Part shown: in pieces, positions 41,459-53,912 of the stretch
Layout: every line of letters begins with the position of its first letter
Position numbering within the stretch: the first letter of the stretch is position 1
Source of the DNA: Nocardia ninae NBRC 108245
Lineage (GTDB): Bacteria > Actinomycetota > Actinomycetes > Mycobacteriales > Mycobacteriaceae
Length of the DNA: 64,000 bases
Direction of reading: 5' to 3'
NCBI RefSeq assembly: GCF_007990755.1
Contig: NZ_BJXA01000006.1
Location: 112,179 to 176,178, forward strand
The notes under the pieces: generated by a model
Database searches by the model: none
Seen by the model: the letters and a program-made list of their open reading frames with translations, nothing else
Told to the model about the DNA's origin: nothing
Program-made: the position numbers and the translations under genes

Positions 41459-41758
41459 GCGGACAGCGAGTTCCGAATCCCGCCCGCCGCTGTGCGCACA
41501 TCTATCGACCGACCGTGATGTTGATGCGTCACCGGATTCGACTCCGATCGCCGGCGTCGGATTTTCGCCTGGTCCCGGCCGAGGAGGCGACTATCAGCCG
41601 CACCGAGCGCTTCGTGCTATTCACATTGACCCTTGCGGCGCGGAAAGCAGCACCGGCATGACACCGTCGCGCCGTGCTCCACAGCAGGCATTCGCCACGA
41701 TCACCGACGGCTCCATGTTCTCCGCTCCGAATGTGTTGGCCTGGAAGGGGACCGCGGC
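41459..41758 (+). other. MoxR-VWA spacer containing a partial copy of the VWA gene start
   Basis: The spacer is 300 bp. At 41658 it carries ATGACACCGTCGCGCCGT, identical to the start of the VWA gene at 41759, and further matching text (ACGATCACCGAC) follows both copies at comparable distance. The copy is out of frame with the gene (offset 101 bp) and its own frame stops at 41762. It looks like a tandem duplication of the 5' end. The rest of the spacer shows no gene. Confidence 0.65.
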
Positions 41759-43177
41759 ATGACACCGTCGCGCCGTAACTCTGTCCCCCAACAGCCTTCC
41801 GACACGATCACCGACCGCCTCGTCGAATTCGTCGGCCTACTCCGTGACCACGGAATCAACGCCGGCCCCAGCGAAACAATCGACGCCGCAGAAGCAATGC
41901 TCGCCCTCGGTCTATCCGACCGCAACCGACTGCGGTCCGGAATGGCCGCCTGCCTCCTCCGCCGCAACGGCCAACGCGCAGTCTTCAACCAACTCTTCGA
42001 CCTCTACTTCTTGACCACCGAACAGCCTCAACCAGCACCTGCTGCAACCCCGGAATCCATTGAGTCGCTTCGAGACCGCCTCACCACCGCCCTCACCGAA
42101 GACGACCCCGCCGCCACAGCCGACCTGGCCCGCCAAGCTCTGACCCAACTCGGCGCCTACGGCGGAGCAGGCACCGGCCAAACCTCCGCCCCCGTCACCA
42201 CCGCCTCCGGCGCAGGCTGGTCCTCCTACCTGACCATGAGATCCCTACGCACAGAAGACCTCATCGACCGCATCACCGCAGCCACAACCGCCGCATCCCC
42301 CCTCGACGCCGCCGTCCGCACCATCGAAGCCAACCGCCGCCTCACCCAATTCCGCACCGCCGTCCAAACCGAAGCCCGCCTCCGCTCCGCCCAACTCCGC
42401 GGCACGGAATACATCGCCCGCCGCGGCGTCGAATCCAGCCCCGACCAGGTCGACTTCCTAGGCGCCCGCGAACAAGACCTAGCCGAAATGCGCCGCCTGG
42501 TAACCCCTTTGGCCCGCAAACTAGCCACCCGCCTAGCCGCCCGCCGCCGCAAATCCGTCCGCGGCCAAATAGACATGCGCCGTACCCTCCGCCGCTCCAT
42601 GTCCACCGGCGGCGTCCCCATCACCCCCGTCCTCCGCTCCCGCAAACACGGCCGCCCCGACCTGGTAGTCCTAGCCGACCTCTCCGGCTCAGTAACCGGC
42701 TTCGCCGAATTCACCCTCCAGCTGATCCAAGCTCTCCAAGACCAATTCACCAAGGTCCGCAGCTTCGGCTTCATAGACACCTGCGACGAGATCACCGACT
42801 TCTTCACCCCAGGTGAACCGCCAACCCCAGGCCTAGCCGCCCACATCATCCGCGACTCCAACGTCGCCTGCTACGGCAGCAGCAACTACGGCGAAGCCCT
42901 CCAGGGTTTCACCGACAACTACCTCGACGCCCTAGGCCCCCGCACCTCTCTCCTCATCCTCGGCGACGCCCGCACCAACCGCACTGCCCCGAACCTCGAT
43001 GCGCTGCAGGCCATGTGCGACAGAGCCAAACACGCCTACTGGCTCAACCCAGAACCCGCCCGCTCCTGGTCCACCGGCGACTCCGCCGCCCACGTCTACG
43101 CCGAGCACATCACCATGCACGAGTGCCGAAACGTCAAGCAGTTGGCCGAGGTAGTGTCCCGTCTCCTACCTGTATGA
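41759..43177 (+). CDS. VWA-domain (CoxE-like) protein
   Basis: A 472-residue protein. A helical N-terminal half of ~290 residues is followed by a von Willebrand factor A domain with MIDAS motif DLSGSV (near residue 306), the later Thr/Asp positions and NYGEALQGF. Proteins of this kind pair with MoxR ATPases, as in the RavA-ViaA and Cox systems, to present or remodel client proteins. ATG 41759 is chosen as the intact copy of a duplicated start region. It ends ~200 bp before the defence island, but its base composition is that of the host. Confidence 0.88.
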   Translation: MTPSRRNSVPQQPSDTITDRLVEFVGLLRDHGINAGPSETIDAAEAMLALGLSDRNRLRSGMAACLLRRNGQRAVFNQLFDLYFLTTEQPQPAPAATPESIESLRDRLTTALTEDDPAATADLARQALTQLGAYGGAGTGQTSAPVTTASGAGWSSYLTMRSLRTEDLIDRITAATTAASPLDAAVRTIEANRRLTQFRTAVQTEARLRSAQLRGTEYIARRGVESSPDQVDFLGAREQDLAEMRRLVTPLARKLATRLAARRRKSVRGQIDMRRTLRRSMSTGGVPITPVLRSRKHGRPDLVVLADLSGSVTGFAEFTLQLIQALQDQFTKVRSFGFIDTCDEITDFFTPGEPPTPGLAAHIIRDSNVACYGSSNYGEALQGFTDNYLDALGPRTSLLILGDARTNRTAPNLDALQAMCDRAKHAYWLNPEPARSWSTGDSAAHVYAEHITMHECRNVKQLAEVVSRLLPV

Positions 43178-43377
43178 CCTGTATCGCTTTTAGTGGCATA
43201 CAAGGCAGATCCGCTGTCGAAAACTGAACGTTCGAGCACGCGGCGCCGTAGATTCATGGTGATGATCGAGTGCCCGTGTCACAGAGTTGGATGGTCCCCA
43301 TCGTGATCTTGGCAGCAGTGGACGATTCTTGCTCGAGGGCTTCGGCGGTGCGGTGTCCGCAAATTTGCTCGGCCGGC

Positions 43378-43383
43378 TAGGAT
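43378..43383 (+). promoter_or_regulatory. Candidate -10 box of the methyltransferase gene
   Basis: TAGGAT lies with its last base 7 bp before the A of ATG 43390, the spacing expected for a leaderless transcript starting at the initiation codon. No clear -35 box accompanies it. Confidence 0.5.
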
Positions 43384-43389
43384 TCCACG

Positions 43390-44553
43390 ATGCCCTTCGA
43401 TGCTGTGGACCCTGCGCGAGCAGAGATGATCGATCTGTTCGCGGGACCGGGGGGACTGGATGTTGCAGCGAGTTGGCTCGGGGTGCCAGCGGTGGGAATC
43501 GAGCTGGACAGTAACGCATGCGCGACGCGCCGTAAGGCTGGGTTGACGACGAGGCAGACGGATGTTCGTAAGCTGCATCCCTGCCACTTTCCGAAGGCGC
43601 GGGTGTTGACGGCAGGGCCGCCGTGCCAGACCTTTTCGGTGGCCGGATCAGGCGCGGGACGTCGAGCTCTCGACCAGGTGCTTGCTTTTGTGAAGCGGAT
43701 GGGTGCAGGTGACGATGTCCGGGCAGACCTTGCGCAACTAGAGGACGAGCGGACGGGCTTAGTGCTCGAACCCCTGCGATGGGCACTGGAAGCGATCGAG
43801 TGGACTCGGCCGTTTGAGGTGATAGTGCTGGAGCAGGTTCCGACCGTGCTGCCGGTGTGGATGGAAGTTGGTGAAGCGCTGAGTGCGCGAGGCTACAAGG
43901 TCGAATGCCAGATCCTCCGTACCGAAGAGTTCGGTGTGCCGCAAACTCGCCGTCGAGCTGTACTCATAGCCCACCTACACCGTGCACCAAAGCGACTGGA
44001 ACCAACCCATCGCAAGTTTCAAAAAGGTCTGAGACGCAGTGATGGAAAACAGAACCTGTTGGAATGGCGTTCCATAGGGGACGCGTTGGGTCGAGAGGAC
44101 GAGTTCATCGTCGTCTCGAACTACGGCACGGGTGGCGTGCCCGAAGCCAGGGGCGAACGCAGGCACGATGAGCCAGCTTTTACCGTTACAGGGAAAGTGT
44201 CACGGAATAAGTTCAGCGTCGACGGAAGCCATTTGGGCAACCTCACGACCGAAGATGCCGGTCTATTGCAAACCTTCCCGCGCGACTACCCATGGTCGGG
44301 CAGAGACATCGCTCAGCAGATCGGCAATGCCATACCTCCCCGCCTGGCCGCTCATGTGTTGTGCGAGGCGATATTCGGACGGAAGCCGGAGGCGCAAGCC
44401 CTCGATGCTGCAGTGGCTGGGACGTGGATGCTCGCGAAGCAAGGTTCATATCGGTTGCTTCCCGATCACGACGACTTGGAGCTGCCCGAGTTCCGGGCCG
44501 ACGAAGATGCGGCGACGCTGTTTGATATCGATTCGGCCACGATCTCCAAGTAG
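43390..44553 (+). CDS. DNA (cytosine-5-)-methyltransferase
   Basis: A 387-residue Dcm-type enzyme. It contains motif I DLFAGPGGLD (15-24), motif IV AGPPCQTFS with catalytic Cys79, motif VI as LEQVP (E148-Q149-V150, where ENV is usual), motif VIII QTRRRAVLIA (185-194), and motif X QQIGNAIPPRLA. Between VIII and X a variable target-recognition region is short. It would methylate a specific DNA sequence on the host and protect it from the restriction genes downstream. It is separated from them by 246 bp and has its own promoter, so it can be expressed first. The recognition site cannot be read from sequence. Confidence 0.93.
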   Translation: MPFDAVDPARAEMIDLFAGPGGLDVAASWLGVPAVGIELDSNACATRRKAGLTTRQTDVRKLHPCHFPKARVLTAGPPCQTFSVAGSGAGRRALDQVLAFVKRMGAGDDVRADLAQLEDERTGLVLEPLRWALEAIEWTRPFEVIVLEQVPTVLPVWMEVGEALSARGYKVECQILRTEEFGVPQTRRRAVLIAHLHRAPKRLEPTHRKFQKGLRRSDGKQNLLEWRSIGDALGREDEFIVVSNYGTGGVPEARGERRHDEPAFTVTGKVSRNKFSVDGSHLGNLTTEDAGLLQTFPRDYPWSGRDIAQQIGNAIPPRLAAHVLCEAIFGRKPEAQALDAAVAGTWMLAKQGSYRLLPDHDDLELPEFRADEDAATLFDIDSATISK

Positions 44554-44700
44554 GCGCAACGGCTCGCGTAGATCAGCCAAAGTCTGGACAATCATTCTTT
44601 CAGATTCAAAACCACTCGTGAGCAGCTCAGCAGCTGCCTTCGCTAACGTCGCCATCAATGTGAAACGCCTGTACTGCGAGTGATTTACCGCGGACACCGT

Positions 44701-44747
44701 CCCCCTGGCCGCCTCGACGCCTAGTGTTAGCCGTAACACTCAGGGGG
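44701..44747. promoter_or_regulatory. Nested inverted repeats upstream of the Z1 operon
   Basis: The inner palindrome AGTGTTA-GCCG-TAACACT (44723-44740) is flanked by CCCCCTG (44701-44707) and CAGGGGG (44741-44747), which also pair. It lies 53 bp before the start of the five-gene restriction operon, so it could be an operator, a hairpin attenuator or a terminator separating the methyltransferase transcript. The symmetry is seen; the role is inferred. Confidence 0.55.
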
Positions 44748-44799
44748 CCATTCGAGACTCACCTCCTTGAGGTAGTAGTCCGAGGCGTGGGGAGAACCG

Positions 44800-47373
44800 A
44801 TGGCAGACCAAATCGATGATCAGTACGAAGTCTTCAAGATGCTTTTGGATTCCACCACTCCGGCCGATGCTGTCAAGCAGCTTTCGATACTGGGCGTCGG
44901 CGAGGCTACGATCCAGCAGATCGTTGAACGCCATGAGCAGCAGATGATCCGGATCAGAGAGATGGACGAGCCCCGGTCCGTTGTTATGGATAACCGGGAC
45001 ACTTGGTATGCAGGCCCTCGTCCGGGCGACAAGTGCTGGCCGGCCGTCGTGGACATACTTCACGCCCAGGGTTGGGAGGCGGTGCCCTCGATCAGCGACT
45101 TGAACGACTGTTCGACTCGTATCGTCTCGCTGCTGAGCCATCCGAAGGAAAAAAGCTTCTCAACTCGAGGTCTTGTCGTCGGCTACGTCCAGTCCGGTAA
45201 GACCACAAATTTCACCGCAGTCATGGCGAAAGCGGCCGACCGGGGTTATAAGCTCTTTATTGTACTGGCTGGTATCCATAATGGCTTGCGACGTCAGACC
45301 CAGGCCAGGTTGATACAGCAGCTTGTCGAGCCGAATCCTAGTCGCTGGACCCAGATTACCGATCTGGACCGAGACTTCAGACCTACGGCCAATCCGGCAA
45401 GCTTCTTCGGCAAAGCAAACAAAACGCACGTGCTGTGTGTAGTTAAGAAAAATGCTCCAGTACTGCGGAAGCTGACTAAATGGCTGGAGAACGCCTCGGG
45501 CTATCTGATCGACTGTCCGGCACTGATCATTGATGATGAAGCAGACCAAGCTACTGTGGCCACGAAGTCGATCAACCCATTGATCAGGCAAATTCTCGAC
45601 CGGCTGCCCAAGTCTGCGTACGTTGGCTATACGGCTTCGCCCTTCGCGAATCTACTTATCGACCCTTCCGTAAAGGATTTGTATCCGGAGCATTTCATCG
45701 TAAGCTTGCCCAAGCCGAGTGGTCATTTTGGTACGGAGGTTCTCTTCGGCCGGTATGCGCTGGATGGCGAGGATCCTTCGGAGGTCGACGATGGGTTTGA
45801 TATGATACGCATCATTCCAGATAGGGATGTCGAGTTCGTCAGACCTAAAACCAAGGCTGATGTAGACGGATTCGCACCTGAGTTGACTCAGACACTGACC
45901 AGCGCTTTGCAGTACTTTTGGATGACAACGGCGGCCCGTCGTGTTCGCGGGTCCGGAAACCCACATTCAACGATGTTGATCCATACCAGTGTTCGTACCT
46001 CGGTTCACAATAGCTTCCGAAGTCCGCTCGAAAATTTTCGCAGTGAACTCGCAAGGAACCTGTCCGACTCTGATATCAGGGACGATTTGAAATTTCTCTG
46101 GGACAGCGAGACTAAGCGGGTGCTCGCAGAAGATTTCGGAGAGTCACCCGTCGGCTTTGACCAGCTGCTCCTCGAGCTCCCAGGTGTCTTGGCTGACTCC
46201 CGGGTTGTTATGGACAACTCGGAGAGTATTGACCGCCTGGACTATGAGAACGGCCCCGTGGTCGCCGTAGTCGTCGGCGGAAATACATTGTCACGTGGTT
46301 TGACCCTCGAAGGCTTGTCGGTTAGCTATTTTGTGCGCGCTGTATCGGCATATGACACCCTGTTGCAGATGGGTCGTTGGTTCGGCTATCGGAACGGATA
46401 CGCTGATTTGCCGAGGATCTGGATGACGGCGGAGATCGAAGATTGGTTCCGGCACCTGGCGACTGTGGAGACGGAAATGCGCCGTGATATTGATATATAT
46501 CTCACGGAAAACAAATCTCCTCGTGAATTTGCTGTACGGATTCGTACGCATCCCGCCCTCAGGGTGACAGCCGCCGCCAAAATGAAAGATGCGGTGGTGG
46601 CGGCTTCTGCCTACGGTGGATTGCGAATTCAGACACACTACTTCCATACCAAATCGGATTGGCTGCTTGCGAACCAACGAGCCACCAGCCGGCTAGTTGT
46701 GGATGCTCTCAGGAGCGGGCAGAGAACAGAGGCGCATCCGAACAAAGGTCGCTACATATTCCATAACGTAGCCAGCGATTTTGTTCTTCGCTTCCTTCGT
46801 GACTATCAGTTCCATGAACGATCGTTGGAGTGTGACTCAAAACTTATCGTTGACTATATCGAGAAACGAATACGAGTCGCTGGTTCGTTGCGTCAATGGA
46901 ATGTGGCCATTGTCGGTAGGCCTGTCGGCGAGCCTGATGAAAACTTCGAATTTGCTGAAGGTGTAGCCGTGAGGCGCATTTCTCGCGCTCGTATGCGGAC
47001 TTCGGAGGCCAACTTCGCAGACATAAAAACTCTCATGAGTCGACGTGACGCTGTAGTGGATATCAACGATGATGATGTGGAAGATTGGGAAGAAAAGAAG
47101 ATCGTAGCTGAGCGTGCAAAACGTCTCCCTAACACTGGCCTCGTTGTCCTTTATCCCATCGATAAGGCATCTCGACCCAGCAAGGGCAGGGAGGAATTCC
47201 GGTTGGCCCTCGATGTCGAAGAGCATGTGATCGGTGTCGGCTTGGTATTCCCACGTCCGGGCGAGCGAGACAGTGAAGTCAAAGGAGAGGTCAAATATAT
47301 ATCTGCAGATTTGTCAGGTGTGGAGCGCGAAGAGGAGGACTACAGCGTTCTCGAAGCCGAGGATTCCGAATGA
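44800..47373 (+). CDS. Z1-domain superfamily 2 helicase-like ATPase (defence)
   Basis: An 857-residue protein. A ~110-residue helical N-terminus precedes an SF2-type ATPase core: Walker A GYVQSGKTTNF (Lys134) and a DEAD-like box IIDDEADQATV (245-249). Then come SAYVGYTASPFAN, the Z1-domain signature GGNTLSRGLTLEGLSVSYFVR, and motif VI QMGRWFGYR (about 523-531) with the arginine finger. Z1 proteins occur in restriction-modification operons with MutL/MORC-like GHKL ATPases. It probably moves along or remodels DNA for cleavage. ATG 44800 has GGGGAGA upstream. Its stop overlaps the DUF4420 start by 4 bp. Confidence 0.9.
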   Translation: MADQIDDQYEVFKMLLDSTTPADAVKQLSILGVGEATIQQIVERHEQQMIRIREMDEPRSVVMDNRDTWYAGPRPGDKCWPAVVDILHAQGWEAVPSISDLNDCSTRIVSLLSHPKEKSFSTRGLVVGYVQSGKTTNFTAVMAKAADRGYKLFIVLAGIHNGLRRQTQARLIQQLVEPNPSRWTQITDLDRDFRPTANPASFFGKANKTHVLCVVKKNAPVLRKLTKWLENASGYLIDCPALIIDDEADQATVATKSINPLIRQILDRLPKSAYVGYTASPFANLLIDPSVKDLYPEHFIVSLPKPSGHFGTEVLFGRYALDGEDPSEVDDGFDMIRIIPDRDVEFVRPKTKADVDGFAPELTQTLTSALQYFWMTTAARRVRGSGNPHSTMLIHTSVRTSVHNSFRSPLENFRSELARNLSDSDIRDDLKFLWDSETKRVLAEDFGESPVGFDQLLLELPGVLADSRVVMDNSESIDRLDYENGPVVAVVVGGNTLSRGLTLEGLSVSYFVRAVSAYDTLLQMGRWFGYRNGYADLPRIWMTAEIEDWFRHLATVETEMRRDIDIYLTENKSPREFAVRIRTHPALRVTAAAKMKDAVVAASAYGGLRIQTHYFHTKSDWLLANQRATSRLVVDALRSGQRTEAHPNKGRYIFHNVASDFVLRFLRDYQFHERSLECDSKLIVDYIEKRIRVAGSLRQWNVAIVGRPVGEPDENFEFAEGVAVRRISRARMRTSEANFADIKTLMSRRDAVVDINDDDVEDWEEKKIVAERAKRLPNTGLVVLYPIDKASRPSKGREEFRLALDVEEHVIGVGLVFPRPGERDSEVKGEVKYISADLSGVEREEEDYSVLEAEDSE

Positions 47374-48386
47374 CAGATGCACTCCGAGACATCATCGACG
47401 AGCACTGGCGACTTCTGGAAGCGGAGACTGTCACCTCTGAGAGTGCTGTGCGGACATCCGAGCTACCGGTTGAGACAGTATGCGGCCCGCTGGTGGCCGC
47501 CGTGGATTTCGACGGTGGCCGCCACATCTTGGTTCCGGTGGACTCCCATCAGTCGGTCAGGAAAGGGTTGAACGGTCCGGCACTGCAGCTGAGAAAGCGA
47601 GCGCTGGAAACCGAGGAGTCGTATCAACAGTTCGCTGACCTCGGCTGTTTGCAGACGGATCTGAATGAGGTGTTCACGTCACTGAGTGCGGAAATCTTGC
47701 AGGCAGTCCAGGTTTCGGCTGACAATCCGATCAAGGGACTGTATCGGGTTCTGGACCAGTGGAAAGCGTTGTTCCAAGGAGTCGGCGTTCCCTTAGGGCC
47801 CCAAAAGCTTGCCGGCCTTTTCGGAGAACTCATTGTGCTGCAACAGATGCTCGACATAGATCGTAGTGCTCATCGCCTGTGGCGAGGGCCGCTCGGTGGC
47901 CGCCACGACTTCGCATCCGGTGGGTCGGCCGTGGAGGTCAAAACCTCCATGATCACCGAGGGAAGGTGGGTGCGAATTCACGGCTTGGAGCAACTGGATC
48001 CACCTCCTGGCGGGGCTCTCGAGCTCGTTTGGTTGCGTCTAGAATCTACGTCCAGTAGAGGTGTCGGGTTCCAGGATCTAGTAAACCAGGTGCTGAAGCA
48101 ATGCGATGACGAGTATGCGGTACTCAGCTTGCTGGCTGCCGCAGGCTACCGTCCAGTTGATGCTGAACACTATCGGCAGTGCAGATTCGAGGTAGTCGAA
48201 GCGCGTTGGTATGGAGTCGATATCGCCTTTCCAAGGCTGACCAGAGGTGACCTTATCGCTGCGGGGGTCGTGATCCGAGTACAGGACGTCGAGTACACGA
48301 TCGAGTTGACTTCGGAACCACCTTTCCCATTGGACGAGCAGTCGGTCAGTCGGCATCTCCGTGCGATGATCGAGGAGCCGGCATGA
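47370..48386 (+). CDS. DUF4420 / PD-(D/E)XK-motif nuclease
   Basis: A 338-residue protein of the DUF4420 family. The restriction-endonuclease fold motif is visible: Glu153 in GLFGELIVLQQML, Asp180 in GGRHDF, and Glu189-x-Lys191 in SAVEVKTS, i.e. an E...D...ExK active site. It is the likely DNA-cutting subunit of the system. It begins inside the Z1 gene (ATGA overlap) and ends overlapping the GHKL gene by 4 bp, so all three are made in fixed proportion. DUF4420 proteins are known partners of Z1 proteins. Confidence 0.87.
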   Translation: MTDALRDIIDEHWRLLEAETVTSESAVRTSELPVETVCGPLVAAVDFDGGRHILVPVDSHQSVRKGLNGPALQLRKRALETEESYQQFADLGCLQTDLNEVFTSLSAEILQAVQVSADNPIKGLYRVLDQWKALFQGVGVPLGPQKLAGLFGELIVLQQMLDIDRSAHRLWRGPLGGRHDFASGGSAVEVKTSMITEGRWVRIHGLEQLDPPPGGALELVWLRLESTSSRGVGFQDLVNQVLKQCDDEYAVLSLLAAAGYRPVDAEHYRQCRFEVVEARWYGVDIAFPRLTRGDLIAAGVVIRVQDVEYTIELTSEPPFPLDEQSVSRHLRAMIEEPA

Positions 48387-50344
48387 TCGCACCTGCATGG
48401 TTCTCCCAGCCGTACCCACCGGAGGGTGCCAGTGCCGCAGAGGGAATCAGAAACCAGCTGGGCAAGCCTGAACTGGACCACCTCACGATTCTGGTCCGCG
48501 AGTCAGCTCAAAACAGTTGGGATGCAAGGATATCCGACGATCGTACGGTCGACTATCGGATTGATCTTCGAACAATCAGCGCAGCGGACGCGCCTGCATG
48601 GCGAGAGCAATTCCTGCGGGGGGTACCGGCTGAGGACCACCTTCCATTGCGAAAGGCTTTGACACAGCCAACAATCCGTGTCATGTCGATCTCTGACCGG
48701 GGCACCCGAGGACTCGGTGGTCCGACTCGGGCGGATGTCATTTCCAGCACTCGCCGGGACTTCGTCACCTTTATGCGCAACATCGGTGAGCCACGAGACA
48801 GAGCACTGGGCGGTGGTACGTATGGATTCGGGAAGGGGATTCTTTACCTTGTCTCACGCCCGGGCGTGATCCTCGTACATACGCGGTGCCAGGTAGATGG
48901 AGGATTCGAAACCCGACTCATGGGTGCCGCGCTATGGAAAAGCTATGACTTCACTCGGCTGGCAGATAATCGTCGATACACCGGACGGCACTGGTGGGGG
49001 GACACGACAGGCGATGTTGTAGAGCCATTGACTGGAGCGGCAGCGGAGTCGATGGCACGTGCACTCGGGCTTCAGGCATTCGGTGCATCGGAAACCGGCA
49101 CGACGATCCTCGTGATCGATCCCAATCTGGAAGAACGAGAGCCCGCGCGTGCGGCAGGATATCTGGCAGACACCATCGCTTGGCACTTGTGGCCGAAGAT
49201 GCTCGAGAACCGATCGGGGGTCCTACCTATGCGGTTCGCCGTGACCTGTGACGGCATCAGTTACCCCGTGCCTGATCCTGCTGAAACTCGCCCGCTGAGT
49301 CTTTTCGTGGCCGCGTACCGAAAGCTGGCAGAGGTCGAGAGTAGAGAATTGTATTGTGGCAAGCCGAAGAAGCTGCTCGGCAAAATGGCGTTGGAAAAAC
49401 GGGTTGTTCCGAAATTTGAGCCTTCCGACGTAGCCGAGATGGTGGGGGTGTCGGGACTGACTCATCATGTTTGTCTCATGCGGCCGGCAGAGTTGGTAGT
49501 CAACTACTGGAGGGGCCCGAAGCCGCCCAGCGAGCTGGTGTCTTATGCTGGTGTCTTCCGAGCTGATGACGCAATGGACGAGATCTATGCAGCGGCTGAA
49601 CCACCGACTCATGATGGTTGGAATCATCAGTCCCTCGAGCATCCGGACAGCACCTACGTCAGGACCACCTTCAAGCGGTTCGGTGAAGCGATCGAGGGCT
49701 TGCTCGACCTCCGCGGTGGCGTGGGGGTTGGCGCCGCGCAGGTATCACTTGGGGCCGCAAGTAGTAAGTTGTCCCCGCTGATAGGTGGTGCCTGGGGTAT
49801 CGGCGCCGCGACCGATTACGGGCGCCCGGGTGACGTCCAAGCGCCGACTCCACGGCCGAGGCCCGGTCCGGCTCCGCGAGGGCGCGACGACGATTCTGGA
49901 TCACCAGAGGCTGAGGTCGGAAGCACGCCTGCAGGTCCCGGTGGATATGACGGCAAAGGGAGTGGCAATGCAACAGATGGGAGCCAGCCGTCAGCACCGC
50001 GGTTCCGGCGGCCCAAGGTCGAGTACGTGGGTGATCCGTACCTCGATGAGTATTCGGGAGCGGCGGTTCTGATCCAGCCTTTTCGCTTACCCGTCCAGAT
50101 CGTTCAACGCGTCAAAGCCGAAGTGGCTGTGGCCTTGACGACCGATGGGGGACGCGAGACAGATCCTCCTGCCGGCGCGGAGATGCCGGGCCTCGTCGGA
50201 TGGGAGGACGACAGCGGCGTCCTGATTGCGTCTCCGACCTTCGTGATCGCCGGGGGCGACGGCAGGATATGGAAAGCGGTCGTTAAGCCCGCTGCCGACA
50301 CTGTGACTGATATTTCTCTCGGTGTAGAGGCGGTGAAGGGCTGA
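48383..50344 (+). CDS. GHKL (MORC/MutL-like) ATPase of the defence operon
   Basis: A 653-residue protein. The GHKL ATP site is clear: N-box VRESAQNSWDAR (Glu40, Asn44, Asp47), G1 box SISDRGTRGLGG (Asp105) and glycine-rich lid GGGTYGFGKG (143-152). Middle regions resemble no named domain to me. At about 480-560 there is a Pro/Gly/Arg/Ser-rich disordered linker, then a compact beta-rich C-terminal domain. GHKL proteins of this paraMORC kind were described in prokaryotic restriction operons and are thought to clamp or reshape DNA using ATP. The gene is coupled to both neighbours (ATGA before, TGATG after). Confidence 0.85.
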   Translation: MIAPAWFSQPYPPEGASAAEGIRNQLGKPELDHLTILVRESAQNSWDARISDDRTVDYRIDLRTISAADAPAWREQFLRGVPAEDHLPLRKALTQPTIRVMSISDRGTRGLGGPTRADVISSTRRDFVTFMRNIGEPRDRALGGGTYGFGKGILYLVSRPGVILVHTRCQVDGGFETRLMGAALWKSYDFTRLADNRRYTGRHWWGDTTGDVVEPLTGAAAESMARALGLQAFGASETGTTILVIDPNLEEREPARAAGYLADTIAWHLWPKMLENRSGVLPMRFAVTCDGISYPVPDPAETRPLSLFVAAYRKLAEVESRELYCGKPKKLLGKMALEKRVVPKFEPSDVAEMVGVSGLTHHVCLMRPAELVVNYWRGPKPPSELVSYAGVFRADDAMDEIYAAAEPPTHDGWNHQSLEHPDSTYVRTTFKRFGEAIEGLLDLRGGVGVGAAQVSLGAASSKLSPLIGGAWGIGAATDYGRPGDVQAPTPRPRPGPAPRGRDDDSGSPEAEVGSTPAGPGGYDGKGSGNATDGSQPSAPRFRRPKVEYVGDPYLDEYSGAAVLIQPFRLPVQIVQRVKAEVAVALTTDGGRETDPPAGAEMPGLVGWEDDSGVLIASPTFVIAGGDGRIWKAVVKPAADTVTDISLGVEAVKG

Positions 50345-51240
50345 TGGTGCAGCGTGCACTTCCGTATCGCACTCCGTCGGAGGCGGTTGTGACGGCCAAG
50401 AATTGGTTCTTGGTCATCGACGACGGAGAGATTCCGTTGCCTGAAGCGTTGCCGCACTGGGATTATCAGACGGACCTCACGCTACGGCGAGAGGTGCAGA
50501 TCGATCTCGATCGTGCTCTCGCGGAGTCCCGCTTGGCCCCGGGGACGGAGCTCGCCCTCGCCGCTGTATGGACTGCCACCGGATCGAAGCTCAAGGGTAC
50601 GGCGGCCAGGACAACCGTGCGCCAGTCCGGTTCGATAACGCTCGAAACACATTTGCCTGGATCGGATCTCGGCGGTGTGCTGCTGTTGGATACAGCGCTT
50701 GTTCTGGCAAAGCGCCGGGTCGGTGCAGATCGTCCGGTCGCCGCGCGGCGCGCTGGTTCAGTGCTGTGGGGCGACCGTCGCCAAATGCGATTGCAAGGGG
50801 ATGCGCCTCAGTTTCCCATGGCCGTCATCGATTTTGCCAAGACAAATTACTCCGAGGGCGCTGCTTGGCATCTGGATATCGGCACCAACCTGGAAGCAGC
50901 GACAATGGGCTCCCTCCTGCTACTTGTCAACGAGAGTAAGAACATAGCGGCAGAAGCCCTGAAAAATGCAGGAAACCCACGACTCCAAGACAAGATCGTG
51001 CTGTCGATGATCTACGGTGACGTTGCCAGGGTGATGGTTGAGCATGCCTTGAGTCTTCAAGACTTCAACGATGACATGACGGTCCACGATGAAACGCTGG
51101 GCGCGACATTGCTCGAGCTGTTCGGGCGGCTGTTTCCGGATAGATCGATCGAGGATGTGCGCCTGCGCGCCCAACAGTCCCCAAGCCTGTTCGCGTCCGA
51201 GTTGCAGTCTGCGGTCCGTATTTTTGAGGATGTCGAGTGA
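50344..51240 (+). CDS. Defence operon protein of unknown function
   Basis: A 298-residue protein I do not recognise. The first ~150 residues look beta-rich (alternating hydrophobic strands, e.g. TELALAAVWTATGS, GSITLETHLPG, LGGVLLLDTALVL). The C-terminal half is helical (MGSLLLLVNESKNIAAEALKNAG, LQDKIVLSMIYGDVARVMVEHALSL, LGATLLELFGRLF). No catalytic motif, signal peptide or membrane helix is visible. It starts within the stop codon of the GHKL gene (TGATG) and overlaps the next gene by 4 bp, so it must serve the same system, perhaps as an assembly or adaptor subunit. Confidence 0.7.
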   Translation: MVQRALPYRTPSEAVVTAKNWFLVIDDGEIPLPEALPHWDYQTDLTLRREVQIDLDRALAESRLAPGTELALAAVWTATGSKLKGTAARTTVRQSGSITLETHLPGSDLGGVLLLDTALVLAKRRVGADRPVAARRAGSVLWGDRRQMRLQGDAPQFPMAVIDFAKTNYSEGAAWHLDIGTNLEAATMGSLLLLVNESKNIAAEALKNAGNPRLQDKIVLSMIYGDVARVMVEHALSLQDFNDDMTVHDETLGATLLELFGRLFPDRSIEDVRLRAQQSPSLFASELQSAVRIFEDVE

Positions 51241-52742
51241 GCTTCCTTTATCCGCGGCTACTCAGAGTTCCTGCCAGGGAGCTGGCAAAGCAGTACAGAG
51301 AACTCTCAGCGGCCGAGTTGGCCGGCAGCTGGACTACAAGTGATGAGTCGGCTGTCTATGTTGCTACCGGCGGGGATCGGGTGCCTGCCGCGAAGCTCGC
51401 TGACCTACGCGAACTGGTGGTCGATCTGGCACACAGTTCAGGATTCCCCAATGAACCTTCCGCACAACAAAAATCGTCGTTCGACCTTGCACTTGCCGTT
51501 CTGCTGCATTCTGAGATGGGGATCGATCCCGCTGAAGCCGCTGCAGGAGATATTTGGGCATTCCTCGCCTTGATCGTCCTACCAGACGTCGCCCATTGGA
51601 GGTATCCGAACCCGCCCGGGGACCGGGTCCGCGGCACTGACCTGACACGCCACGTCTTCGGTCGGCTGTGGTGGCGCGCTTACCTGATATATGCACCTGA
51701 GGATGAGGAACCGTATGCGGCCTTGACCGTTTTGGGCGAGGCAGCGTTCGACCAGATTTATGCTCGCCGCACTGCCCTGGGCGGCAGTCCACATCTAGTC
51801 AAGTCGATCCTGCGGGTGTGGAACAGTCTTGACTTCCAAGACTTCTCGCGCGGTGTGACCGGCGTTTCCGAACGTGCGGTTCTTCAGGACTTCCTCAAGC
51901 GGTTGTTGCGGCTGGCACCGTTTGTCATCTTCGAAGCGGTAGAAGAACAGGCGCTGGTCACGGAGCTTCGAGCCGTTGCCGAGGAAGCACTCTCGGCAAT
52001 GTTGGTGAACGCGGGAATGCCGGAAGAAGAGGCAGTGGTTCGGGTAGCTCATGTCTTGACGGACGCCGGAAGTGCCCCTCAGATCTCGCCGCTACCAGAT
52101 TCTGTCCGTACTATGCGTCGTCGACGAGACAGTTCTGTCTCCAGGTCCATGTTCTCGCTTGATCCAGTCGCATCGACCGAGCACGCGGCAGCCGCAGAAC
52201 CGCAACCGATCTGGCAGCAAGTTGTGCCGGAGGTCGAACCGCTTCAGTCGTATAAGGCATACGAAGGGCAGTCGTTCGGAGATCCACGAGAGCTCGGATT
52301 GAGGGCCCTCGCTGACGCCGTCACCGAAGTAGTGTCAGTGGAAGGCCCTGTCCGGGCGGAGCGTGTATATCGGCTGATCACCCGCCTGAACGGTGGCAGG
52401 CTACGGGACAATGCCCGGACTGCACTAGTCGAAGCGACCAAGTACGCGAAGCGCGAGAACATGATTGACGCGGAGAACCACTTGGGCCGCAACGGCTTCG
52501 CAGGCGCCACGTTGAGGCTCCCCGATCATCCGATCTGTGTCCTCCGTGAGCGTGGGCCACGGGAACTTGACGAGATACCGGAGCGTGAGATCGCGGCTGC
52601 TGTCCGTATGTTGCAGGAAGCCGAGCCAGATGTTGAGCTGGATGATGTCATCAAACGTGTATCACTCTTGTTCGGATACGAGCGATGCACCCGGAACGTC
52701 TTTGAGGCAATAGCCGAGTCCGCGGCACGATACCCGACCTGA
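51237..52742 (+). CDS. Defence operon protein, DUF6339-like N-terminus and winged-helix-like C-terminus
   Basis: A 501-residue protein closing the operon. The N-terminal ~210 residues (LYPRLLRVPARELAKQYRELS ... ALTVLGEAAFDQIYARRTALG) resemble the DUF6339 group sometimes found near Z1 systems. A middle helical part and a linker follow. Residues ~345-450 (LRALADAVTEVVSVEGPVRAERVYRLITRLNGGRLRDNARTALVEATKYAKRENMI) look like the DUF3320-type winged-helix module found in restriction-related helicases. Both family links are by eye and tentative. Such a module could read DNA sequence and supply the specificity subunit. Its start overlaps the previous gene by 4 bp. Confidence 0.65.
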   Translation: MSFLYPRLLRVPARELAKQYRELSAAELAGSWTTSDESAVYVATGGDRVPAAKLADLRELVVDLAHSSGFPNEPSAQQKSSFDLALAVLLHSEMGIDPAEAAAGDIWAFLALIVLPDVAHWRYPNPPGDRVRGTDLTRHVFGRLWWRAYLIYAPEDEEPYAALTVLGEAAFDQIYARRTALGGSPHLVKSILRVWNSLDFQDFSRGVTGVSERAVLQDFLKRLLRLAPFVIFEAVEEQALVTELRAVAEEALSAMLVNAGMPEEEAVVRVAHVLTDAGSAPQISPLPDSVRTMRRRRDSSVSRSMFSLDPVASTEHAAAAEPQPIWQQVVPEVEPLQSYKAYEGQSFGDPRELGLRALADAVTEVVSVEGPVRAERVYRLITRLNGGRLRDNARTALVEATKYAKRENMIDAENHLGRNGFAGATLRLPDHPICVLRERGPRELDEIPEREIAAAVRMLQEAEPDVELDDVIKRVSLLFGYERCTRNVFEAIAESAARYPT

Positions 52743-52892
52743 TGGTGGGCGGCACACGACATGCTGGCGCGGTGACTAGGCGCGGCCGCCGCCATACGAC
52801 GCTTGGAAAATATGACCAAGCTGTTTCGGACCATGTTCGAACGAGGTCGCCAGCAGTTGTTCACAAGCGCCGGTCAACCTGCGATCGAGTAA

Positions 52893-53912
52893 TCAGTGTC
52901 GAACTTCCGTGACCTTTACGGGACGGCTTTCACGGCGGGAGAGTTCGCAAGCCTCGGCCACGTAGAAGGCTTCGAGGGCATCCATTGGGCTGCAGGGGTT
53001 TTCGAGATCTCCGTTGACTACGGAGACGAACGCGACCAGTTCGTCGGTGTACGCGCGACGGAAGCGGTCCATGAACCCTGGGTAGGCGGGGAAGGTGGAG
53101 GGGATGTAGTCGGGTTCGACTGAGGTCAAGGGGGAGCGGTCGTCCAGGCCGACGATGGCGTTGCCTTTGGAGCCGAGGGCTTCGAGGCGGACGTCGTAAC
53201 CTGCGCCGTTGTAGCGGGTCAAAGAGACGGTGGCGAGGGAATCGTCGTCCAGACGCAACAGCACCGCAGCGGTGTCGACGTCACCGGCGTCGGTGAAGAA
53301 GGAGTCGCCGCGGTTGGATCCGGTGGCGTACACCGAAACGATCTCGCGACCGGTTACCCAGCGGATGATGTCGAAGTCGTGGACTCCGCAGTCGCGGAAG
53401 ATGCCACCCGACCGGGGGATGTAGTCGGCGGGGGGTGGGGTGGGGTCGAGGGTGGTGGCTCGGAGGGTGTGGAGCCAGCCGAGGGAGCCGGAGGTGATGG
53501 CGGTGCGGGCGGCTTGGTAGCCGGCGTCGAAGCGGCGTTGGAAGCCGATTTGTACTGGGGTGGGGGAGTTTTGGATGTGGTCGAGGACTGCGAGGGTGCC
53601 TTCGATGTCGGCGGCTACTGGTTTTTCGCAGAAGACGGGGATGCCTGCGTCTACGGCGCGGCAGATGAGGTCGGGGTGGGAGTCGGTGGCGGTGGCGATG
53701 ATGAGGCCGTCGAGGTCGGCGGCGAAGAGGGTGTCGAGGTCGGGGGTGAATTCGAGGCCGAGTTTGGTGGCGGTGGTGCGGGCTCGGTCGGGGTCGGCGT
53801 CGGCGAGGAGGACGTTGGCTACGTTGGGGAGGTTTTTGAGGGTTTCGGCGTGGGAGGTGCCGATGCGGCCGGTGCCTGCGAGGCCGAGGGTGACGGCTTT
53901 GTGGGATGTCAT
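52893..53912 (-). CDS. iolG: Gfo/Idh/MocA oxidoreductase, probable inositol 2-dehydrogenase
   Basis: A 339-residue NAD(P)-dependent dehydrogenase. It has an N-terminal Rossmann motif GLAGTGRIGTSHAETL, the family motif EKPVA, and a C-terminal domain with GGIFRDCGVHDFDIIRWVTG carrying the conserved Asp and His of inositol dehydrogenases. The first step of inositol breakdown, oxidation of myo-inositol to 2-keto-inositol, fits its position beside the LacI-type repressor and the iol operon. It is transcribed after the repressor gene with a 54-bp gap. A dehydrogenase for a related cyclitol or sugar is possible, so the symbol is provisional. Confidence 0.78.
   Translation of the reverse strand: MTSHKAVTLGLAGTGRIGTSHAETLKNLPNVANVLLADADPDRARTTATKLGLEFTPDLDTLFAADLDGLIIATATDSHPDLICRAVDAGIPVFCEKPVAADIEGTLAVLDHIQNSPTPVQIGFQRRFDAGYQAARTAITSGSLGWLHTLRATTLDPTPPPADYIPRSGGIFRDCGVHDFDIIRWVTGREIVSVYATGSNRGDSFFTDAGDVDTAAVLLRLDDDSLATVSLTRYNGAGYDVRLEALGSKGNAIVGLDDRSPLTSVEPDYIPSTFPAYPGFMDRFRRAYTDELVAFVSVVNGDLENPCSPMDALEAFYVAEACELSRRESRPVKVTEVRH

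Follow-up and report, generated by a model that had tools for sequence, protein, structure and literature searches.

Six adjacent Nocardia ninae genes resemble a DNA-cutting immune system whose type was predicted in 2008

What do six neighbouring genes of the actinobacterium Nocardia ninae NBRC 108245 do, and how would their products choose the DNA on which they act? The genes lie in a 64,000-nucleotide stretch of contig NZ_BJXA01000006.1 (positions 112,179 to 176,178), hereafter the window, and encode a C5-cytosine DNA methyltransferase (methylase) of family D1, a PF10593 protein, a DUF4420 nuclease, a GHKL ATPase and two proteins that we call g5 and g6 (Table 1). Together they look like a DNA-cutting immune system, and as a set they make up the third operon type that Iyer, Abhiman and Aravind described in 2008. 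In the sections of that paper drawn on here, this type joins a superfamily II (SFII) helicase with the motif DThhQXuRhFG, an E-D-ExK nuclease and a MORC or paraMORC ATPase, often with DNA methylases and Vsr, the methylase not being universal; a role for MORC-like ATPases in restriction systems is proposed there as well (PMC2292703). On balance, we infer that the locus probably provides defence by methylation-gated, ATP-dependent restriction, with g6, or a dead methylase fused to it in relatives, as the target reader.

The helicase motif, the E-D-ExK nuclease (PF14390) and a neighbouring Dcm methylase of that operon type are all present in the locus. The motif reads DTLLQMGRWFG at residue 519 of the PF10593 protein, and its D, T, Q, R, F and G are invariant in 91/91 aligned sequences. 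The candidate active-site residues of the nuclease (E153, D180, E189xK191 and Q208) are likewise invariant in 88/88. ExxxH of the GHKL protein corresponds to E406 and H410, which, with the other GHKL residues tested, are invariant in 91/91; a variable proline/glycine-rich stretch and then a C-terminal region follow. The profile search gave no Pfam match for this protein, and alignment A1 gave no PDB sequence match. By its ExxxH it fits paraMORC2 of Iyer et al., a type in which an S5-fold domain behind the GHKL domain carries this motif, and it belongs to a class described as MutL-related (PMC2292703). The original prediction of a six-gene cluster with intact motifs, including a GHKL paraMORC protein in a restriction operon of the kind described by Iyer et al., is borne out by the Pfam matches and by the conservation of these motifs. 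Restriction by such a core would be ATP-dependent. For g5, which would act as an adaptor within the system, the Ig-like fold is predicted at about residues 9-153 and the C-terminal part is more helical; the protein had no family match, and neither it nor four relatives at the same position had a PADLOC match.

A relative of the GHKL protein is encoded by 333 of 373 pattern-matched stretches from one genome collection. The named loci (n=80) are the best 80 of these 333, ranked by similarity to the GHKL protein, and therefore favour Streptomyces and Nocardia and give no frequencies. Four of the 14 loci from the host's order, L018-L021, duplicate the contigs of L099, L113, L110 and L103; like the plasmid loci L031-L033, they were excluded from the tree and the state counts. 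L123 and L068 are also one contig. The original prediction treated the six genes as one system, and their co-occurrence holds up elsewhere: g6 was found in 97/97 loci, the PF10593 gene in 96/97, the DUF4420 gene in 92/97, and 88 of the 90 distinct relatives have a PPCQ-bearing methylase open reading frame (ORF) inside the stretch that was fetched. The locus is a compact, widespread unit with intact active sites and a concrete reader candidate. Within the order its spread is patchy, the core occurring in 15 of 298 genomes. In five genomes of the genus, the host's own included, the interval from MoxR/VWA-type genes to a Gfo/Idh-like oxidoreductase (41633-53912 of the window, and L158-L161, the L161 sequence ending 1.6 kb before the right flank) varies in cargo and is a variable hotspot.

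Table 1. Genes and parts of the locus, in window coordinates
Feature	Coordinates	Strand	Basis
C5-cytosine DNA methyltransferase, family D1, 387 amino acids	43390..44553	+	PF00145 1.5e-28; PPCQ, QTRRR, GNAIPP
ORF with PF10593 (4.2e-65)	44800..47373	+	motifs conserved in 91 rows
DUF4420 PD-(D/E)XK nuclease, 338 amino acids	47370..48386	+	PF14390 5.6e-52
GHKL ATPase, paraMORC2 type, 653 amino acids	48383..50344	+	PDC-M33A 1e-8; alignment A1
g5, 298 amino acids, proposed adaptor	50344..51240	+	predicted Ig-like beta sandwich
g6, 501 amino acids, DUF6339 helical domain and tail, proposed target-reading subunit	51237..52742	+	PF19866, PF11784
g6 tail, residues 349-498, winged-helix-like at 349-430	52281..52730	+	AlphaFold2 model of g6

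Methylation would gate restriction by this core, and the methylase itself is its changeable partner. D1 relatives, 51-61% identical to the window enzyme, adjoin the core in 29 of the 90 distinct loci; across the core tree the active methylase swaps between unrelated families, with at least nine changes, and the core remains constant. Motif VI of the window enzyme reads EQV, a replacement of ENV seen in 29/29 D1 relatives, which also keep PPCQ and GNAxPP (29/29). Two D0 methylases lie near the core in the Geodermatophilaceae-type loci L021, L022, L102, L103 and L106 (L021 and L103 being one contig), either flanking it on both sides or both downstream. The methylase could be hotspot cargo only, the five-gene core being a methylation-independent defence that senses, for example, DNA ends or replication intermediates, but this is rather improbable given how regularly a PPCQ methylase ORF accompanies the core (88/90) and given a second, dead methylase fused to g6 in 39/90. 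Vsr is encoded by 73/90 relatives, including 50 of 51 D0 loci, and this, with a GHKL protein of the MutL-related class (PMC2292703), would suit a dedicated, very-short-patch-like mismatch repair of deaminated 5-methylcytosine, in which the MutL-like protein, nuclease and ATPase work with Vsr and Dcm. We hold that to be very unlikely, as searches for Vsr came up empty in the window and in all 12 Nocardia loci retrieved from the named collection, and the patchy spread and hotspot position fit defence better.

If restriction is gated by methylation, which component would read the target DNA? The composition of g6 suggests an answer that is new here, namely a DUF6339 domain with an optional DNA-reading tail, and the protein occurs in three forms. 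The short form is DUF6339 alone, in some cases with small extensions. The window form, modelled by AlphaFold2 with a mean predicted local distance difference test (pLDDT) score of 83.8, adds a low-confidence linker (300-347) and the tail, which in this model looks like a winged helix; tails of this type are common to 8/90 distinct relatives. The long form (about 600 amino acids; 39/90, all in Streptomyces, Kitasatospora or Streptacidiphilus) continues from DUF6339 into a complete C5-methylase domain, as in L068, where residues 301-607 match PF00145 2-322 of 324 (E 5.9e-38). The window tail stretch also matches the C-termini of ProA (1.5e-8) and PDC-S37 (5.2e-13), defence proteins that end in the same winged-helix-like module, which would suit a modification-dependent (type IV-like) system cutting foreign DNA with particular modifications. 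We give that reading very little credence, since the almost constant presence of host C5-methylases (88/90) and the methylase-derived domain point instead to the reading of an unmodified site.

The fused methylase is dead by its motifs: arginine replaces the catalytic cysteine in 39/39 domains (typically GGLPRVK for GGPPCQ), and the QxRxR pattern is lost in 38/39. A stand-alone gene for the same dead enzyme lies near D1 in eight Nocardia loci, and in L040 (3632-4644) it is split across two overlapping ORFs; this split copy was classed as dead from a short pattern and is absent from the methylase-domain alignment. A sister copy in three Streptosporangiaceae loci keeps the cysteine and QxRxR, and much of the motif VIII-IX interval is conserved across the fused, stand-alone and sister settings. 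Both methylase trees omit L048 (truncated ORF), and the careful tree also omits ten near-identical fused rows. The quick tree placed the dead copies in a single clade beside the cysteine-bearing ones (Shimodaira-Hasegawa-like approximate likelihood ratio test, 84); the careful tree, which groups the cysteine copies in 60% of bootstraps, does not settle this point. In the careful tree the fused copies fall in two places, and a single clade is rejected by the approximately unbiased (AU) test (p-AU 0.018, for a group defined after the quick tree was seen), so that fusion or fission occurred at least twice overall. With a median ratio of nonsynonymous to synonymous substitution rates (dN/dS) of 0.117 (0.084-0.192; 54 of 61 close pairs usable, pairs non-independent), the fused dead domains are, judged by codon comparison, under purifying selection, which indicates a retained pseudoenzyme. 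In the host genome the best match to the dead enzyme reaches 32% identity, so that it holds no close copy; in the window g6, the winged-helix-like tail takes the place of the dead methylase.

DNMT3L helps DNMT3A, and the dead methylase could similarly be a helper subunit of the active one, balancing modification and restriction without reading the target. Its position near the active D1 gene in the eight Nocardia loci, and the co-occurrence of the cysteine-retaining sister with D1 in the three Streptosporangiaceae loci, speak for this possibility. We think it unlikely, although worth keeping in mind, because in 39 loci the dead copy is fused to core g6 and not to a methylase, its fusion state changed at least twice, and the fused form accompanies D0 and D1 methylases alike. 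The physical tie of the dead methylase is to the restriction core. Target reading by g6 or its dead methylase is weakened by the 35/90 relatives that have neither tail nor dead copy. The natural g6 variants (short, winged-helix tail, dead methylase) allow each step to be tested. Were the dead methylase a reader, a restriction system would have turned an inactive methylase into its specificity part, and site reading and marking could match without a shared subunit.

How does the locus compare with known systems? MZA was reportedly first described by Gao et al. in 2020, and we take its full set to include AIPR. The original prediction of a distinct variant related to MZA stands as regards distinctness: AIPR (PF10592) has no match in the host genome, and g5, g6 and the methylase occur where MZA has AIPR. 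Among the Mza models of PADLOC and NCBIfam, the matches to MzaC (377.8 bits against 1500) and MzaD (97.1 against 420) fell far short of equivalog level, and the GHKL protein matched PDC-M33A only and not MzaB, even when E values up to 1 were allowed. The locus is not MZA. Of the PADLOC candidate PDC-M33, M33A is matched weakly by the GHKL protein (1e-8) and M33C weakly by g6 (1.1e-7), and B is unmatched. Searches of open PMC papers brought up none that deals with DUF6339, with PDC-M33 or with a reader role for a dead C5-methylase, and the consulted text of Iyer et al. names no g5 or g6 equivalent, dead methylase or reader role, although its Fig. 2 may show g5 and g6 equivalents as uncharacterised domains (PMC2292703). 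CglI and NgoAVII are described as three-gene systems in which a PLD-B3 nuclease reads the site itself, without GHKL, DUF4420, g5 or g6 (PMC4267653); profile searches matched none of the six window proteins to a PLD or B3 family. A like island, likened by description and not by sequence comparison, was noted by Puigbo et al. (2017) in Corynebacterium diphtheriae BH8, where an EcoRII-like nuclease and an Xre-Dcm fusion are added (PMC5379612). In the paraMORC3-like Shedu protein VcSduA, which is reported to stop phage, a paraMORC-group GHKL ATPase works with a PD-(D/E)XK nuclease, the same pairing as in the window (PMC12137116).
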